Source: Halanaerobiales bacterium (GTDB lineage Bacteria > Bacillota_F > Halanaerobiia > Halanaerobiales > DTU029). From it: DNA of 7,260 nt. The first letter of the stretch is position 1. Each line of letters starts with the position of its first letter. The stretch lies in assembly GCA_016278415.1 (NCBI GenBank), contig JADQBV010000454.1, forward strand, positions 1 through 7,260, in the 5' to 3' direction. Below, one piece after another: positions 1-7,260 of this stretch. The notes beneath the pieces are model-generated. The model was not told where the DNA came from, made no database searches, and was given only the letters and a program-made list of their open reading frames with translations. The position numbers and the translations under genes were made by a program.

Positions 1-851
1 AGTTGTTTAAGGTGTTCATCATCCCCTATTCTATCAAATTTTCTTGCCTTTTTTAACTTTTCCTCAATATCTGACTTTTGTTCCTTATCAACATCTTTTG
101 TATTTTCTAGATCTTTGTTTTGATCTTTTTTTCTTTTCGCAATAACAATATTACCAGAGATCGACGAATTAAATGTTGGTACTTGTACAATCCCATTATT
201 TTCACTCCACTCAGAAACTTTATTGCATACCTTGATTTTTAATATTTCAGGATATATTTCCTCTTGTTCATTAAAATCTCTTATTGCTTCACTTAAATAA
301 TATGTAAATACACCTTGTTTAAGCCTTTCATCTGGATAAGAAAATCCTTCTTCACGACATGAAGCCATAGTAATCCATCCTGATTCTAGATTATTTAATA
401 TATCTCTTGAAAATTCTTTATAATTTAATATAGATCTTACATCCTGACCTGATCTACATGCATCAAATATTCTAACATTAATTTTACCTTTGTTCCTTAA
501 TAAATCACTTATATCTCTTAAGGCAATTGCAGTACTTTCAATATTACTAATTTCTGTTCTAGGTAAGATCAAATAAGAATCCCCATTTTGATAATGTCCA
601 TGGCCTGCATAATAAAATAAAATCGTATCACCAAATTGTGTTTTTTTTACTAATTCTTCTATATCATCTAAAACTTTTTTGGGAGTAATTTCATCATTTG
701 GATTTAATAATTTGTCTATTACATCTTGTTCCGCAAAATCACAATAATTAATTAGTGTGTCTCGTAATAATTTCACATCATTATGGCAATATGCAGTAGA
801 ATTTGCTTCATTATATTCTTCGCTACCAAGTAAAATTGCAAATCTTTTCAT
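1..851 (-). CDS. caspase-like (peptidase C14) protein, C-terminus cut by window edge
   Basis: The frame runs from ATG at 849-851 to the left edge without a stop: 283 codons visible, C-terminus missing. A strong AGGAGGT (861-867) lies 9 nt before the ATG and fixes the start. The first ~235 residues form a caspase/metacaspase fold: strand AILLGS (5-10), strand TILFYYAGHG (76-85) carrying catalytic His84, and strand VRIFDACRSG (126-135) carrying catalytic Cys132, followed by a GWITMASC strand (158-165). Both dyad residues are in their family context, so an active cysteine endopeptidase is likely; cleavage specificity cannot be read. Residues ~239-283 are rich in Lys, Asp and Glu (hydrophilic linker), so a further domain probably follows beyond the edge. 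No signal peptide is seen; cytoplasmic. Bacterial proteins of this class are often executioners in anti-phage abortive systems. It lies downstream of a NACHT gene on the same strand, with a dead IS between, which suggests but does not prove a shared role. Confidence 0.9.
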   Translation of the reverse strand, partial: MKRFAILLGSEEYNEANSTAYCHNDVKLLRDTLINYCDFAEQDVIDKLLNPNDEITPKKVLDDIEELVKKTQFGDTILFYYAGHGHYQNGDSYLILPRTEISNIESTAIALRDISDLLRNKGKINVRIFDACRSGQDVRSILNYKEFSRDILNNLESGWITMASCREEGFSYPDERLKQGVFTYYLSEAIRDFNEQEEIYPEILKIKVCNKVSEWSENNGIVQVPTFNSSISGNIVIAKRKKDQNKDLENTKDVDKEQKSDIEEKLKKARKFDRIGDDEHLKQ

Positions 852-933
852 TTATTAAGGACCTCCTTGTTTATTTAATAATTAATATCAAAATGTCGCT
901 TAACGTATCCGTATTGCCGAAGTACAGCAGACT

Positions 934-962
934 TAGATAGCTGATATGGAAGCAACTGTCAA
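934..962 (-). promoter_or_regulatory. outward promoter-like site at IS end, facing the caspase gene
   Basis: On the minus strand a perfect TTGACA (-35) is at 957-962, followed by a 17-bp spacer and TATCTA (934-939) as a weak -10 that matches only the first three consensus bases. It points towards the caspase start at 851 and is the best -35 box between the IS and that gene. The -35 lies just inside the right inverted repeat of the insertion sequence, the known position for the outward -35 of IS110/IS1111 elements. Activity in this inserted state is inferred; the poor -10 makes it uncertain. Confidence 0.4.
947..956. repeat. right subterminal inverted repeat of the IS
   Basis: TGGAAGCAAC on the plus strand is the exact reverse complement of GTTGCTTCCA at 2564-2573. 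The two copies bracket the transposase remnant, with 379 nt on the 3' side and 61 nt on the 5' side of the reading frame. It directly abuts the outward TTGACA box at 957-962. A 10-bp match alone could be chance within this window; the position at both IS ends and the adjoining promoter boxes make an IS terminus more likely. Confidence 0.5.
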
Positions 963-1335
963 GCGTTTTTGGGGAAAAAGACCCTTACCTCTTAAGATTC
1001 TTCTCATACAGCCTCTGAATCATTGAATAAAATATATTCCCGTAAATAAACAACTTTACTCTTTGATTGTTTATCGTCTAAACAGATAACACATCCCTCC
1101 GAAGGAATAACTAAATAACTATTTATAGATTGGCAGAGCGGAAATGAAATATTAGATCAGCCTATTGGCGTACTTTGGTTTTAGAGACCATTAAAGCACA
1201 TTATAAAAACGTCCAGGAGCTGCCTTGATCTCTTATACGTACGCTCAGAATTTTAACATCCTAGTGCAAGCTATCTATCAATGTCTCTCCATATCGTTGT
1301 CTAGTTTCCACCTTGCCTAAACTTTAATTTCTTTA
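957..1335 (-). other. IS 3' non-coding end; candidate guide (bridge/seek) RNA region
   Basis: No reading frame of note exists here on either strand. The segment lies between the transposase stop and the right inverted repeat, where IS1111-type elements are known to encode the structured RNA that guides target choice. Visible structure: an 8-bp perfect hairpin ATAAACAA/TTGTTTAT at 1046-1074 with a 13-nt loop, and a 5-bp hairpin at 1094-1107 (TCCCT-CCGA-AGGAA, one wobble pair on the minus strand). These are modest and I cannot assign guide loops. Given the age of the element the RNA may be decayed too. The RNA call is inference from position and family. Confidence 0.3.
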
Positions 1336-2502
1336 TTAACTTTTTATTATGCAATATCTATTATAAAACCAATATTTCTCTATGCAACATGGCTTTTTTT
1401 CTACTTTTCTACTTTTCTCTTTTTTACTCACTACCTGTATTCCTGCTTCCCATATAAAACCCATAAGCTCCCTAGCTATGGCTATGATTACTACTTGATT
1501 GAGGTTTACCACGTCCTGACAGACGCCAGCATTTCTTGTGTAACCTTCTCTGGGCTCTCCAGGAAATATCTTTAATCACCGGGGATAATCCCTTCTGTCT
1601 TTTATTAATTGCATAGCTTACTTTCGGCTTCAGCTTATAGTTTTGACATGTCGCAATTATGACCCTTCTTAGATGAGTATTACCTGCCTTGGTAATTTTT
1701 CCATTACCACTTGAGTGTTCTGAGGGGATAACCCCTAAATAAGACATAAATTACTGGGGTTTTGAAATCCGCCTGATATCTCCTATTTCACAGGCAATAG
1801 AGGCTACTGTAATTGTATCAATACCCCGGAAACCTTTTAAAGCTTTAATGAATTCTTTTGAGAACATGTAGGAACATATTTCTCAATAGTTTTATCAAAT
1901 CGCTTAACCTGTAGTCTGACCTGGTCATAATTCTGCAGATATTCCTGCAAAACTAAGGATTGAGTTTCATTATTAATCAATCTAACCACTGACGATAAGC
2001 TACTGGGCCAGGAATTGATATCTCCTGGTTTGATGATATTATTCCGTAATAGAAATTGCTTGATTCTGTTCTTTGCTCTTGTAAGGTCACTTACCACTCT
2101 TTCCCTGGCAAGTACCAAATCCCGATGAGCTTCGTTTTCTCTGTCAGGAACCAGATAAATGTAAGTTCATTACTTCTTAATAGACTTGTTAACTTTTTGG
2201 AATCGCGTCGGTCAGTTTTTATCCGGTTTCCTGGTTTTCCTGGGAATAAGTGAAGATGCAGCAACATTACACTCTATACCTACATCTTTAAGATGACGGT
2301 ATATGGTATAACCGCAAGAACTTGCTTCGTAACAAACTTTGAGATTGTCCACTTGATCAAATATGAATAAAACCTTCTTTAATGTTGTTATATTATACTT
2401 GATACTAACATAGATCTTGATTTCATCAGCATATCCTTTTACCCTGGCAATAGTAATTGTTTCTTTATGGACATCCAATCCAAAAAATGTGGTGTTTAAC
2501 AT
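1336..2502 (-). pseudogene. IS110-family DEDD transposase, broken by four frameshifts and one stop
   Basis: The full frame-corrected gene is ~389 codons, normal for the family. It starts at ATG 2500-2502 (GGAG 10 nt upstream) with FFGLDVHKETI, which contains the first catalytic Asp; the family Glu is in VCYEASSCGY. Frameshift 1 lies at an AAAA run (2235-2238), after which TDRRDSKKL supplies the last acidic pair. Frameshift 2 lies near 2155-2165, before VPDRENEAHRDLVLARERVV and the DLTRAKNRIKQFLLR segment. Frameshift 3 lies near 1850-1870, before ALKGFRGIDTITVASIACEIGD. A TAA at 1751-1753 replaces a sense codon between SKPQ and FMSYLGV. The C-terminal domain SSGNGKITKAGNTHLRRVI carries the conserved Ser region. 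Frameshift 4 lies near 1495-1500, after which QVVIIAIARELMGF continues to the TAA at 1336-1338. All family motifs survive in pieces, so the gene was once functional but now is not. Confidence 0.92.
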
Positions 2503-2563
2503 GGCAACCGCACTCCTTTTATTTGATACTTTATTTTGATCATAAACTCTTTAATATCCTGCG

Positions 2564-2578
2564 GTTGCTTCCACTATA
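2564..2578. repeat. left subterminal inverted repeat of the IS with inward -10 box
   Basis: GTTGCTTCCA (2564-2573) is the inverted mate of 947-956. Overlapping it on the minus strand is TATAGT (2573-2578), five of six bases of a -10 box, directed towards the transposase start at 2502. Joined to the right end in a circular intermediate, the TTGACA of the right end would sit 10 bp of repeat plus about 7 bp of terminal sequence away, the correct promoter spacing. A second short inverted repeat, GCAACCGC (2504-2511) / GCGGTTGC (2561-2568), overlaps this site and could fold the transposase leader. Confidence 0.45.
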
Positions 2579-2661
2579 TCTCTTATCTTGGTCTGCTGGA
2601 TTTGTAAGAAATGACGGAGGAATGAAATCGCAATATATTGTTATCTGAAGTTTGAATCCTT

Positions 2662-4581
2662 TTACAACCCCAGCAATAAATAATCTTCCCTTATTTCTTT
2701 CTCAAACTGTTTTTCCATCTTATTTTTTACTTTTTTGCACTTTTCAAAATTAAATATTATGTCATTTTGTTTACATAAAGCAGCATTAACTTGAGAAAAA
2801 TATTCGTCCTTATTAATATGAAGATTAGGGTCATCATTTATTTCCAAATAATCCAGCTTAGGTAAATTAAATTTAACCTTTTCATATTTTATTTTATTAA
2901 CAAATTCTTCCCTTTTATTATATAACATAGGTAATAATGGTAAATAAAATTCTCCTTCATAAATAATTGTATATGAGATTTCAAGATTAATAGTTCTATG
3001 AATTGCAATATGAGTTGGATTGTCTGAAAAGAAAGATTTTACCTCTTTCATTACTCTTTCAAAATCTGATGTAAATGAAGATTTATCTTCATCAATTTTA
3101 TCAACTTTTATAATAATGTTTTTCCCAAAAGTTAATTGTCTCCTTTTATCTATTTCCTCTTTTTTTACATTTTCAAAATCTTTTTGATAAGAATTATTAA
3201 AATGTTCTATAAATTTATTAGCTAAGTCATAGATTATTACTTTTTTAAAAGTAGGATAATCTATGTCATAATATAAATCTAATACATTTAGATAGTTATC
3301 ACATTTTTCGTATAATTTTTTTATTATTTTTCCCTTATTATTATTAGTATCTAAGTGAATAAATCGAGCTGCAAAATACTCTTGGATAGATTTATGAGAC
3401 CATCTATAGTAATTTCCATCTTTAACAAACAGTGGAACCTTGCGAGTTAAGTCTTTGAAAAAGGCGTTTGCATTAAAATCGACTCTCCAAACGTTATCTT
3501 TAGATTGATTAATCAATTCAATAAGATTATCTTTATCAAACTCTATTTTCCCTTGTTTTAATGTTATAAATCCTAATTTTCTTAATACTTTATTAAAATC
3601 ATCAATATCTAGTTTACTGTATTTTTCATTTGTAAATGAACTCCCTTTAGTTAGATCATGTTCCTCAAATAAAGCATCATATACTTGTCTATAAAATATA
3701 TGTTTTTTATAGGGAATCTTAGATTTATACTCATAAGCTTTATATACTAGTGATACTAGTAACGGACTGCTTAGAAATTCTTCAATATTTCTAAAGGTAA
3801 AATCCTTCTCAATTTGTTTAATAAGCCTTTCAGAAAGTTCACCATTATTATCATATTTTTTTATTAAATTAAATGCCCCTTGTTTGTCTAGAGGCTCTAT
3901 TTTAAAAGCTTGAAAGTCTCCAAAAGAAGATAAAGCGGGTTCAGGTCTTGAAGAAATTACAAACAAATTATTATTAGCTTTTGCTATAAATTGCTCCAAA
4001 TCCTCAGTAACATTTCTTCTTTCTTCAAAAGGAATTTCATCATAACCGTCAAAAAAGAATATAAAGTCTCCCCTTTTTATAAGTGCTATTATAAAATCTT
4101 TATTTATTTCTTCATCTATAGGATTTAAGCTTTCGCAAATAAAATCTAAAATACTTTTACTTTTCGATAACTTTCTTAATTGTATAAAAATAGGAATTCC
4201 ATGCTCACCTTTAATACTAGACAAAAATAACCATTTTAAAATAGTGGATTTTCCCATTCCTGCTGTATCTTTAATTAATACTTTTTTATATTTTGGAATA
4301 AAATCATCATTATATTTATTAGTATCAAATATAGTTTCTTCCTCGCTATCTAATTTAACTTTTAATGGTAAGTATAAATCTTCAATATTTTTTTGTTGAT
4401 TTTTAAATACAATAGTATCCATAGTAGAATATTTCTCATATGCTCTACACAAATATTCCTTAAATCTATTCTCAAAATAATGAGCCACTAACTCTTTGTC
4501 CAATTTCAATTCTTTCCTAACTTCTTCTAATTTAGGTTTAACATATACATCTACAATTGATTTAACCAAAACACTTATCAT
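2662..4581 (-). CDS. NACHT-domain STAND NTPase (bacterial NLR-like protein)
   Basis: This is a complete 639-residue gene. AGGAGG (4590-4595) ahead of ATG 4579-4581 decides the start. Residues 1-85 are a helical N-terminal part without a recognisable effector domain. The NACHT ATPase follows: P-loop DTAGMGKST (105-113, with Asp where the first P-loop Gly is usual), Walker B FIFFFDGYDE (173-182) with the NACHT-type acidic residues Asp178, Asp181 and Glu182, and sensor-1-like FVISSRPE (207-214). SSPLLVSLVY (271-280) and the winged-helix hallmark RWSHKSIQEYFAARF (393-407) follow. Residues ~430-639 are a charged C-terminal region I do not recognise; no leucine-rich or TPR repeats are evident, and this is where a sensor would be expected. 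STAND NTPases switch by ATP-driven oligomerisation, and bacterial NACHT proteins include proven anti-phage defence proteins. No membrane segment is seen; cytoplasmic. The nearest same-strand partner downstream is the caspase-like gene beyond the dead IS. The specific trigger and output are unknown. Confidence 0.92.
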   Translation of the reverse strand: MISVLVKSIVDVYVKPKLEEVRKELKLDKELVAHYFENRFKEYLCRAYEKYSTMDTIVFKNQQKNIEDLYLPLKVKLDSEEETIFDTNKYNDDFIPKYKKVLIKDTAGMGKSTILKWLFLSSIKGEHGIPIFIQLRKLSKSKSILDFICESLNPIDEEINKDFIIALIKRGDFIFFFDGYDEIPFEERRNVTEDLEQFIAKANNNLFVISSRPEPALSSFGDFQAFKIEPLDKQGAFNLIKKYDNNGELSERLIKQIEKDFTFRNIEEFLSSPLLVSLVYKAYEYKSKIPYKKHIFYRQVYDALFEEHDLTKGSSFTNEKYSKLDIDDFNKVLRKLGFITLKQGKIEFDKDNLIELINQSKDNVWRVDFNANAFFKDLTRKVPLFVKDGNYYRWSHKSIQEYFAARFIHLDTNNNKGKIIKKLYEKCDNYLNVLDLYYDIDYPTFKKVIIYDLANKFIEHFNNSYQKDFENVKKEEIDKRRQLTFGKNIIIKVDKIDEDKSSFTSDFERVMKEVKSFFSDNPTHIAIHRTINLEISYTIIYEGEFYLPLLPMLYNKREEFVNKIKYEKVKFNLPKLDYLEINDDPNLHINKDEYFSQVNAALCKQNDIIFNFEKCKKVKNKMEKQFEKEIREDYLLLGL

Positions 4582-5453: not shown

Positions 5454-5509
5454 TTCAGGGTCATGTGACCGCAAGTTACGTGAGAGTTCGAATCTCTCCT
5501 TCAGCACCA
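5454..5509 (+). tRNA. 3' fragment of a tRNA-Leu gene (probable attachment-site scar)
   Basis: The segment holds anticodon loop TTCAGGG (5454-5460, anticodon CAG), the 3' anticodon-stem strand, and a long variable arm with GTGAC/GTTAC pairing around CGCAA. The T-arm GAGAG-TTCGAAT-CTCTC is perfect, and the acceptor strand CTTCAGC and ACCA end at 5509. The large variable arm marks a class II tRNA and the anticodon reads leucine. The 5' half is missing: no GCTGAAG acceptor strand or D-arm lies upstream, and the bases before the loop do not form the 5' anticodon stem. Integrating elements that enter tRNA genes leave exactly such a 3' duplicate at one end, with the intact tRNA at the other. On this strand the element should lie upstream, that is to the left, and include the NACHT and caspase genes. 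Confidence 0.85.
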
Positions 5510-6004: not shown

Positions 6005-7260
6005 CTAATATAGAATGTATTCCTTCTGCTCATTTTTTGCTCTATACATAACATGATCTGCTTTTTTAATAAGTTCTTCTAACTGTTTACCATCTTCAGG
6101 ATAAATACTAATTCCCATACTAACATTTATCACAAACTCACTGCCTTCTATAATTAGAGGTTCTTTAAATTTCTCTATCAACTTATCAGCTGCCTTGATA
6201 GCTTCCTCTTTAGATATAATTCCGTCTAGTGCTATAGTAAATTCATCCCCACCCAATCTGGATATTATATCTTCTTTACGGAAAATTTCTTTTAATCTAC
6301 GGGCTACATCTATAAGTATTTTATCTCCCATGCTATGACCATAATTATCATTGATTTCTTTAAACTTATCAATATCCAAAAATATAATTGCTATTTTTTT
6401 TCTATTCTTTTCTGTACTTACTCTTAAACTATTAAATTGCTCTATAAAGAATTTCCTATTTGCTAATCCTGTTAATTGATCGTGATTAGCCTGGTGTTCA
6501 AACTTACTTAATAAATATATTACTACTATAATAAAGACCACAAAAACTACAATCATAATAAAAGCATTAATTAGAAATAAACTGCGATGCCTATTAATCT
6601 CTTCTAGCATAACCCGATCATTATATTTAATTCCAACTACATAAGAATTCCATTGCTCTTTGTCATCCTCACCAGAAATTAAAGCAGGAAAGAATTTGTA
6701 AAGATAAGTATTGCCTTCTAAGTTAATAACTGTACTTTGCACTTCATTACTCAAAATAGAGTTCCTAGCCAATTTTCTTTCAGTTACGGAAATATCAGGA
6801 TTCACAAAGGGCCCTATACTACTCCTTAGCTTAGCAACTCCTTTATTTATAGGTTCAACACTGAAGAATGATATATCTTCCACTATTTCATAATCTTTTG
6901 TAATTTTAGTAGCATCCCCAAATATATCTAAATTTTTAAGAACAGGAAATTTTCTGTGAGCCTCAATACTTAACTCCAATAAATATTTATTATCATGAGT
7001 TGGAAAATAGCTATATTTTTTTATTTCTCCTGTACTTGTAGACAAATCAAGCCGATCAACTACAAAGGAATTCCCTTCCAAACGTTTTCTTAATACTTGT
7101 GAAAAACCTGAATATACCGAAAAATCAAGACCTAAATCCTTTGGAAATGTTGTTTTAATTATCTCCAGCTCACTATTAAGAATATAAATCTCATAAATAC
7201 CAAATTCTTCTTTTAACGGCTCCAAATCCCAATCCATCACTTCGGGATTACGCCGATATT
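6005..7260 (-). CDS. membrane sensor diguanylate cyclase (GGDEF), N-terminus cut by window edge
   Basis: The frame ends at TAG (6005-6007) and is open to the right edge. GTG at 7238-7240 and ATG at 7235-7237 have no ribosome site, and upstream codons (YRRNPE) continue in frame, so the true start lies outside. Numbering from that GTG: residues 1-~218 form an extracytoplasmic sensor-like region, 221-245 a strong membrane helix (FLINAFIMIVVFVVFIIVVIY), then the GGDEF domain from HDQLTGLANR (253-262). FLDIDKFKEIND (287-298) holds the metal-binding Asp, GGDEF (330-334) is the intact active-site loop, and RKED (321-324) is the RxxD product-inhibition site at the correct five-residue spacing. The protein should make cyclic di-GMP from two GTP in response to an external signal, with feedback inhibition. 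The missing part likely contains the first membrane segment. It lies outside the tRNA scar, so it is probably chromosomal and unrelated to the defence genes. Confidence 0.93.
   Translation of the reverse strand, partial: YRRNPEVMDWDLEPLKEEFGIYEIYILNSELEIIKTTFPKDLGLDFSVYSGFSQVLRKRLEGNSFVVDRLDLSTSTGEIKKYSYFPTHDNKYLLELSIEAHRKFPVLKNLDIFGDATKITKDYEIVEDISFFSVEPINKGVAKLRSSIGPFVNPDISVTERKLARNSILSNEVQSTVINLEGNTYLYKFFPALISGEDDKEQWNSYVVGIKYNDRVMLEEINRHRSLFLINAFIMIVVFVVFIIVVIYLLSKFEHQANHDQLTGLANRKFFIEQFNSLRVSTEKNRKKIAIIFLDIDKFKEINDNYGHSMGDKILIDVARRLKEIFRKEDIISRLGGDEFTIALDGIISKEEAIKAADKLIEKFKEPLIIEGSEFVINVSMGISIYPEDGKQLEELIKKADHVMYRAKNEQKEYILY

Follow-up and report, generated by a model that had tools for sequence, protein, structure and literature searches.

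A NACHT NTPase gene and a caspase-like protease gene separated by a probable attC-like site split by an IS1111-type element

Genes at the locus

We analysed a stretch of 7,260 nucleotides (nt) from a Halanaerobiales bacterium (assembly GCA_016278415.1, contig JADQBV010000454.1; hereafter the window), in which a NACHT NTPase gene and a caspase-like protease gene lie on one strand with a dead insertion sequence (IS) between them (Table 1). We conclude with high confidence that the two genes are separated by an attC-like site, the kind of site that bounds integron cassettes, and that the IS has split this site. An original prediction had taken the two genes as one immune module, in which the NACHT protein controls the protease.

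The NACHT open reading frame (ORF) matched the SNaCT5 profile with 73 bits (cut-off 27) and the NACHT profile with 44.4 bits (cut-off 26.7) in the domain profile search. The Walker A Lys111 and the Walker B motif DGxDE showed no variation across the 20 rows of our NACHT alignment (A2), and the intact NTPase of the original prediction was thus confirmed. The ribosome-binding site (RBS) of this gene is AAGGAGG at 4597-4591 (minus strand).

The predicted C14 protease also held up: the caspase ORF matched Peptidase_C14 with 81.8 bits (cut-off 21.4), and its dyad, His84 and Cys132, was invariant in all 32 rows of the caspase alignment (A1). The closest relative is P0121, a protein of 489 amino acids (aa) with 77% identity, and the caspase fold was seen on the model of this relative. 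A caiA RNA match at 849-904 (28.8 bits, cut-off 55.5) was rejected because it rests on the RBS.

Table 1. Positions of the genes, the split site and the insertion sequence in the window.
Feature	Position	Strand	Details
Caspase-like protease (peptidase C14), proposed cassette gene 2	3-851	minus	first 283 of ~490 aa; open at left edge
RBS of caspase gene	862-868	minus	AAGGAGG; from sequence
attC-like site, right half	891-940	minus	nhmmer 945-894, 33.5 bits, E 1.3e-8; stem arm GTCTGCTG 932-925, L' 917-913, R' GTTAAGC 904-898
Dead IS1111-type IS	941-2579	minus	1639 nt; at hairpin apex of attC-like site; junctions from unbroken sites, +/- 2 nt (AG) shared by both ends
Right subterminal inverted repeat	947-956	plus	6 nt inside the other IS end
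Left subterminal inverted repeat	2564-2573	minus	TGGAAGCAAC; 6 nt inside IS end
attC-like site, left half	2580-2652	minus	nhmmer 2648-2577, 47.5 bits, E 6.1e-13; R'' 2646-2640, L'' 2634-2630, stem arm CCAGCAGAC 2599-2591
NACHT NTPase with C-terminal SNaCT5 domain, proposed cassette gene 1	2662-4581	minus	639 aa, intact; from ORF list and domain profiles

The split attC-like site

Without the IS, the intergenic gap is 171 nt long (89 + 82). Window positions 852-2661, used as the query against 299 genomes from the Tepidibacter phylum (genome G004), matched 6 of them, most strongly as two short pieces, one at each end of the query. The flanks of the IS (query 10-86 and 1720-1769) are contiguous in genomes G567, G521 and G346, which represent empty sites; therefore the middle of the query is an insertion in a site of about 120 nt. 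An nhmmer profile built from five copies of the site found both halves in the window, in order and on one strand. The site starts about 10 nt past the stop codon of the NACHT gene; 46 nt separate the end of its R' box from the caspase start.

The boxes of attC sites have the consensus RYYYAAC (R'') and GTTRRRY (R'), and the R' box of the window fits the latter. The stem arms CCAGCAGAC and GTCTGCTG match each other across the IS, yet they are unlike the arms in other genomes, and both halves therefore derive from one hairpin. A cassette bounded by recombination sites on both sides was not found in the window, the end of the caspase gene lying beyond it, and we therefore describe the site as attC-like and not as a proven integron. 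A further box-scan site inside the NACHT gene (2871-3020) was rejected as chance-like, shuffled sequences giving 0-2 such sites per window.

The IS agrees with the IS1111 group, whose marks are given in PMC11208160 and PMC11187229 as subterminal inverted repeats of 7-17 bp and a right end longer than the left. Its left end is short (77 nt) and its right end long (about 400-530 nt, as judged from ORFs), and subterminal repeats of 10 nt are present at both ends; a 10-nt word was shared by chance in 14 of 2000 pairs of random 40-mers, a count in which equal offset was not required. The transposase, of the Transposase_20/DEDD type, is broken into pieces over three frames, one of which matched Transposase_20 (PF02371) with 26.1 bits (cut-off 21.3), so that the dead IS predicted between two genes of the same strand was indeed there.

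Some members of the IS1111 group target attC according to PMC11187229. Two of them, ISKpn4 and ISPst6, combine the IS1111 layout with an attC target in the account of this source, as the window element does; they target one end of attC, whereas the window element occupies the hairpin apex and has a broken transposase. An IS from a group with attC-targeting members in an attC-like site supports the identity of both.

Related arrays in other genomes

Arrays in which ORFs and sites alternate in a single direction were found in loci L098, L100, L101 and L102. There the sites stand directly 3' of ORFs and share one orientation; the window has one site. We built a covariance model (R1) from 10 site copies, and all 22 of its matches at E <= 0.01 in L098-L102 point along their own array, although 10 of the 22 had served to build R1. 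The hairpin placed on the 10 copies paired 81.3% of cells, compared with 25-40% when it was slid along them, a comparison favoured by the structure having been taken from one copy. Column-shuffled copies paired 73.9% of cells and none of 500 shuffles reached the observed value. Changes on both sides were found in 16 of the 36 hairpin pairs among these copies, all from other genomes, so that the site is imperfectly palindromic and its arms covary.

One copy in L100 has GTCTAAC and GTTAGGC as its boxes. Across the 6.4 kb of L132, a scan by the box rules alone revealed five sites, against a mean of 0.2 per strand in shuffled sequence; four of the five lie no more than 85 nt downstream of an ORF, and three are also matched by R1. 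The same scan gave six sites in L102 and three each in L099, L100 and L131, an enrichment over the shuffled means of 0-0.5 per strand. Boxes, pairing arms and placement of this kind characterise the attC sites of integron cassettes.

R1 matched in 15 of the 299 genomes of the G004 phylum, six of which hold at least two sites, and in none of 249 genomes of the phylum of Undibacterium (G006), a set without a control of its own. The genome scans scored the 12-14 best candidates per genome and these counts are lower bounds. In the set for the phylum of Brevibacillus (G010), 13 of 249 genomes matched; they were mostly the same genomes as in the set of 299, and the figure is not an independent count. 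G004 and G010 therefore belong to one phylum, which by name we take to be Bacillota.

Four of ten array proteins picked for comparison clearly matched candidate-defence models of PADLOC, with 33.8-256.5 bits (L132:2578-3336, L132:3563-4288, L100:6639-7325 and L100:1878-2615), and a fifth match was marginal. The models matched by cassette-like genes between attC-like sites in L100 and L132 were PDC-M62B, PDC-S04/SoFic, PDC-S05 and PDC-M34A. In L102, an ORF of 426 aa within the array (12433-13713) has a start that resembles an IS110 transposase by eye.

The repeat might also be a small palindromic mobile element scattered between genes, such as a miniature inverted-repeat transposable element (MITE) or a repetitive extragenic palindromic (REP) sequence, and the gene pair would then be part of an ordinary defence island. 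The copies resemble one another fairly closely, with a mean column identity of 74%, no integron integrase (IntI) was seen beside the arrays, and ISPa11, a member of the IS1111 group, targets REP palindromes according to PMC11187229. Such an element would, however, fit poorly with the single orientation in each array, the position of copies directly after many ORFs, the R boxes, including the pair in L100, and the covarying arms. We consider this explanation unlikely.

Distribution of the NACHT and caspase genes

The two genes were not found together elsewhere. On the caspase side, we scanned ORFs of at least 50 aa in 16 loci with caspase matches, out of 52 loci collected, with flanks of as much as 10 kb in either direction if the contig was long enough. 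The NACHT profile gave no match at E <= 10 in any of the 16, of which 11 hold family members (L001-L010 and L052, each above 190 bits with the caspase profile). On the NACHT side, the caspase profile matched no ORF in 20 loci; a NACHT ORF is present in 19 of these, namely 15 viral contigs with flanks of up to 10 kb and four short genome pieces of about 1.5 kb.

At the level of genomes, nine of ten caspase-holding genomes had no NACHT relative at E <= 1e-10 in a search with A2, in which the control G175 was detected. This search replaced one for the SNaCT5 family, which was not counted: it was silent in the ten caspase genomes, controls included, and gave one match below the cut-off among 291 genomes. 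In the genomes of the G004 phylum, A2 matched at E <= 1e-20 in 3 of 398. The locus and genome searches, in either direction, gave no genome in which the two genes are neighbours, and the conserved adjacency of a fixed NLR-caspase operon was not seen in the related loci. The original prediction had itself named beforehand the absence of such co-occurrence in related genomes as the result that would count against it, and its proposal that the NACHT protein controls the caspase found no support in the loci searched. The alternative result that it named, conservation of each gene with other fixed partners, was not seen either.

No shared partner emerged for either gene. Among 308 ORFs neighbouring the 11 caspase loci, five pairs were alike between loci, and thus there is no partner common to them. 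Four of ten neighbours scanned were of defence type: AbiJ and AAA_21 (L003), SLFN_AlbA_2 (L001) and a SIR2-like protein (L052).

These results bear on the explanation that the two genes form one operon, in which the NACHT protein would sense the phage and switch on the caspase, which in turn would cleave an effector encoded past the left edge, as in CARD-NLR systems. The genes share a strand and would be 171 nt apart without the IS, the two terminator-like sites detected between 800 and 2700 lie on the opposite strand, and bacterial NLR-protease systems do exist (PMC13236601). In LypABC of L. enzymogenes, as this source presents it, an NLR-like ATPase and a protease occur in one neighbourhood, as here; LypA, in contrast, has a trypsin-like peptidase and a CARD-like domain, whereas the window protease is of family C14 and no fixed operon was found. 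The attC-like boundary between the genes, the counts of 0/16 and 0/20 loci and the nine caspase genomes all argue against a single operon. NACHT relatives without a caspase in prophage contigs do so too, as do the plasmid relatives, which have no annotated caspase nearby in the three regions read (of eight plasmid matches). A functional NLR-caspase unit is thus unlikely, and the operon with a downstream effector is in our estimate quite improbable.

Interpretation as neighbouring cassettes

We interpret the two genes, with fair confidence, as neighbours in an array of integron type (attC) within a Bacillota-like genome, each a cassette that moves separately and would defend alone. Because most of the 171 nt is attC-like boundary, the genes were probably joined by cassette recombination. 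The original prediction that they were adjacent in one operon before the IS landed stands as to the adjacency; the operon is not supported, most of the gap being filled by the boundary. The recombination boundary between them means that the pair need not work together, and we lean towards independent functions of the two proteins.

In the course of events that we propose, site-specific recombination at attC would have put the caspase cassette beside the NACHT cassette; an IS1111-type element would then have split the site at the hairpin apex, presumably freezing the boundary, and decayed. The two proteins would each act alone against phage. An integron array has been called operon-like (PMC11014356); its cassettes may have a promoter in common, so that genes could be expressed together and yet work separately. 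Co-transcription of the NACHT and caspase genes from an array promoter is accordingly a possibility.

Several results weigh against the cassette interpretation. In the window, the R'' box AGATAAC fits RYYYAAC at 5 of 7 letters, the R'' and R' boxes match each other at 4 of 7 positions, the site with its halves joined does not pass the strict box scan, and its predicted fold is modest (z -1.8). R1 sees the two halves weakly (23.3 and 12.0 bits), and neither nhmmer, R1 nor the box scan turned up another attC-like site in the window, the region upstream of the NACHT gene included. In the related arrays the box scan was uneven, with one site in L098 (where R1 found five), one in L101 and 0-1 in L133 and L134 (none in L133). 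The attC type of the window was not detected at E < 1 beside caspase or NACHT relatives elsewhere (0 of 38 loci), and the four genomes with arrays, G567, G521, G346 and G566, yielded neither NACHT nor caspase relatives (0/4 each). These four genomes also gave no integron-integrase match over the TIGR02249 cut-off. The recombinases in L101 and L102 are without the IntI insert, and R1 had no match at two loci with true IntI genes, where we had hoped for a positive control. As regards independence of the two genes, the caspase genome G002 has four remote NACHT-core matches (E 3.5e-21 and weaker), none in the locus read, and G528 has a remote caspase (52 bits) about 0.9 Mb from a NACHT match on the same contig.

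A variant that overlaps with the cassette interpretation is that the two cassettes are held together by selection, their defences complementing each other, for example as a backup against escape phages. The decay of the IS suggests that the boundary has not changed for a while. The pair was found in no other genome, and selection cannot be demonstrated from a single case, so that we regard this variant as very improbable.

Recombinases near the arrays

Since R1 is silent beside true IntI genes, it is by their structure and boxes that the sites are tied to classical attC. Tyrosine recombinase genes were found 2-4 kb from two of the arrays (L101 2728-3795 and L102 2593-3351). They scored 212.8 and 205.1 bits against an integron-integrase cut-off of 265, and 215.8 and 209.8 bits against the cut-off of 220 of NF040815 (XerA-type), which they just miss. 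The caspase genomes G005 and G007 each have an integron-integrase match over the cut-off. In L101 about 80 additional N-terminal residues precede the integrase, and in L102 (region 2225-3351) a similar-looking segment is a separate ORF.

Integrons are described in PMC9024848 as extremely rare in Firmicutes, where IntegronFinder 2.0 gave one complete integron and a few attC clusters. Among the matches listed in the open-licence literature, we found no description of attC arrays in Bacillota beyond these rare cases. We might speculate that in some Bacillota attC-type arrays are run by an integrase other than IntI (XerA-like, lacking the IntI insert and, in one array, extended at the N terminus) and bank single-gene immune systems including NLR relatives and solo caspases; we hold this broader proposal to be rather doubtful.

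The NACHT protein as a proposed single-gene defence

The NACHT protein combines a NACHT and a SNaCT domain with intact Walker motifs and no discernible effector domain, as expected of clade 14 of the bacterial NACHT proteins (bNACHTs). Members of this clade are characterised in PMC12169576 by SNaCT domains, an effector domain that is not readily discernible, and protection against phage. In bNACHT02, 11 and 12, as far as this source sets them out, a central NACHT domain is followed by a short SNaCT C terminus with no discernible N-terminal effector, as here; the window protein differs in belonging to the SNaCT5 subfamily and in adjoining an attC-like site, and its likeness to the clade is drawn from domains and not from a tree. 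The best reading is that it is a clade-14-like bNACHT forming an autonomous single-gene defence cassette.

By parallel with clade 14, the protein would be a one-gene STAND switch acting alone against phage. The SNaCT5 end may sense infection, the ATPase core may drive assembly, and growth arrest or death would be caused by the helical N terminus or by the assembly itself.

In the prophage or viral contigs L060, L063 and L064, NACHT-SNaCT5 genes occur as single cargo genes directly upstream of the gene for the terminase small subunit. Three of the five downstream ORFs scanned pass a terminase cut-off, those of L059 and L072 failing it, and L061, L062 and L065-L068 appear by look to have the same arrangement. 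The site upstream of this terminase gene is possibly a defence hotspot.

The caspase as a proposed solo protease

The caspase is best read as a solo protease with an uncharacterised C-terminal domain, carried as an autonomous single-gene defence cassette. The solo character and a regulator within its own C terminus are suggested because this domain recurs throughout the family and no partner gene does. We propose that the C-terminal domain, of about 230 residues, would keep the protease inactive until a trigger arrives, upon which the caspase would cut a protein of the cell or of the phage. The domain distinguishes the window family from the MALT1 paracaspase and the metacaspases; a Foldseek match to MALT1 was stretched across the C-terminal part at a root-mean-square deviation of about 19, and the VIA-align rows span residues 1-242, so that we base no conclusion about the C-terminal fold on either.

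Profile comparison of the whole alignments revealed no similarity between the SNaCT5 end of the NACHT protein and the C-terminal domain of the caspase. Residues 262-489 of P0121, used as a query, retrieved P0121 and one further caspase and missed other known members of the family, and this search is therefore no evidence that other proteins lack the domain. A solo caspase family with a conserved C-terminal domain would be well suited to asking whether a protease can combine sensing and action in a single chain.

Two loci of caspase relatives have a particular arrangement. In the viral contig L052 (6822-12082), a SIR2-like gene of 1045 aa stops 38 nt before a family member of 694 aa. In a Geobacter assembly (L005, 6614-9557) the caspase gene is split, and the piece that matches the C-terminal part lies beyond an ORF of 453 aa on the opposite strand.

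Comparison with integron defence stores

Mobile integrons are reportedly carriers of defence cassettes too, to judge by the title of a reference. The integron cassettes of Vibrio have been reported as stores of anti-phage genes (PMC12409362). According to PMC12409362 and PMC12444791, the defence cassettes of Vibrio chromosomal integrons usually hold one gene each, with an attC-type boundary and defence content, as proposed here. Unlike in Vibrio, the attC type of the window was found in the Tepidibacter phylum only, no IntI was seen, and the content is NLR-like and caspase-like.

Should an attC-like boundary indeed divide this NLR relative from the caspase, integron defence stores would extend to genomes of Gram-positive type, and would take in two protein families known chiefly from the inflammasomes of animals. 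The locus is also a warning against reading gene neighbours as modules.

Other features of the window

A GGDEF diguanylate cyclase gene (165.8 bits) occupies 6005-7258 on the minus strand, the strand shared by the NACHT and caspase genes, and is cut by the right edge. At 5480-5509 (plus strand), 30 nt are identical to the 3' end of the tRNA-Leu(CAA) of two viral contigs, with no whole tRNA in the window; from the sequence match, this stretch is possibly the attachment-site scar of an integrated element.

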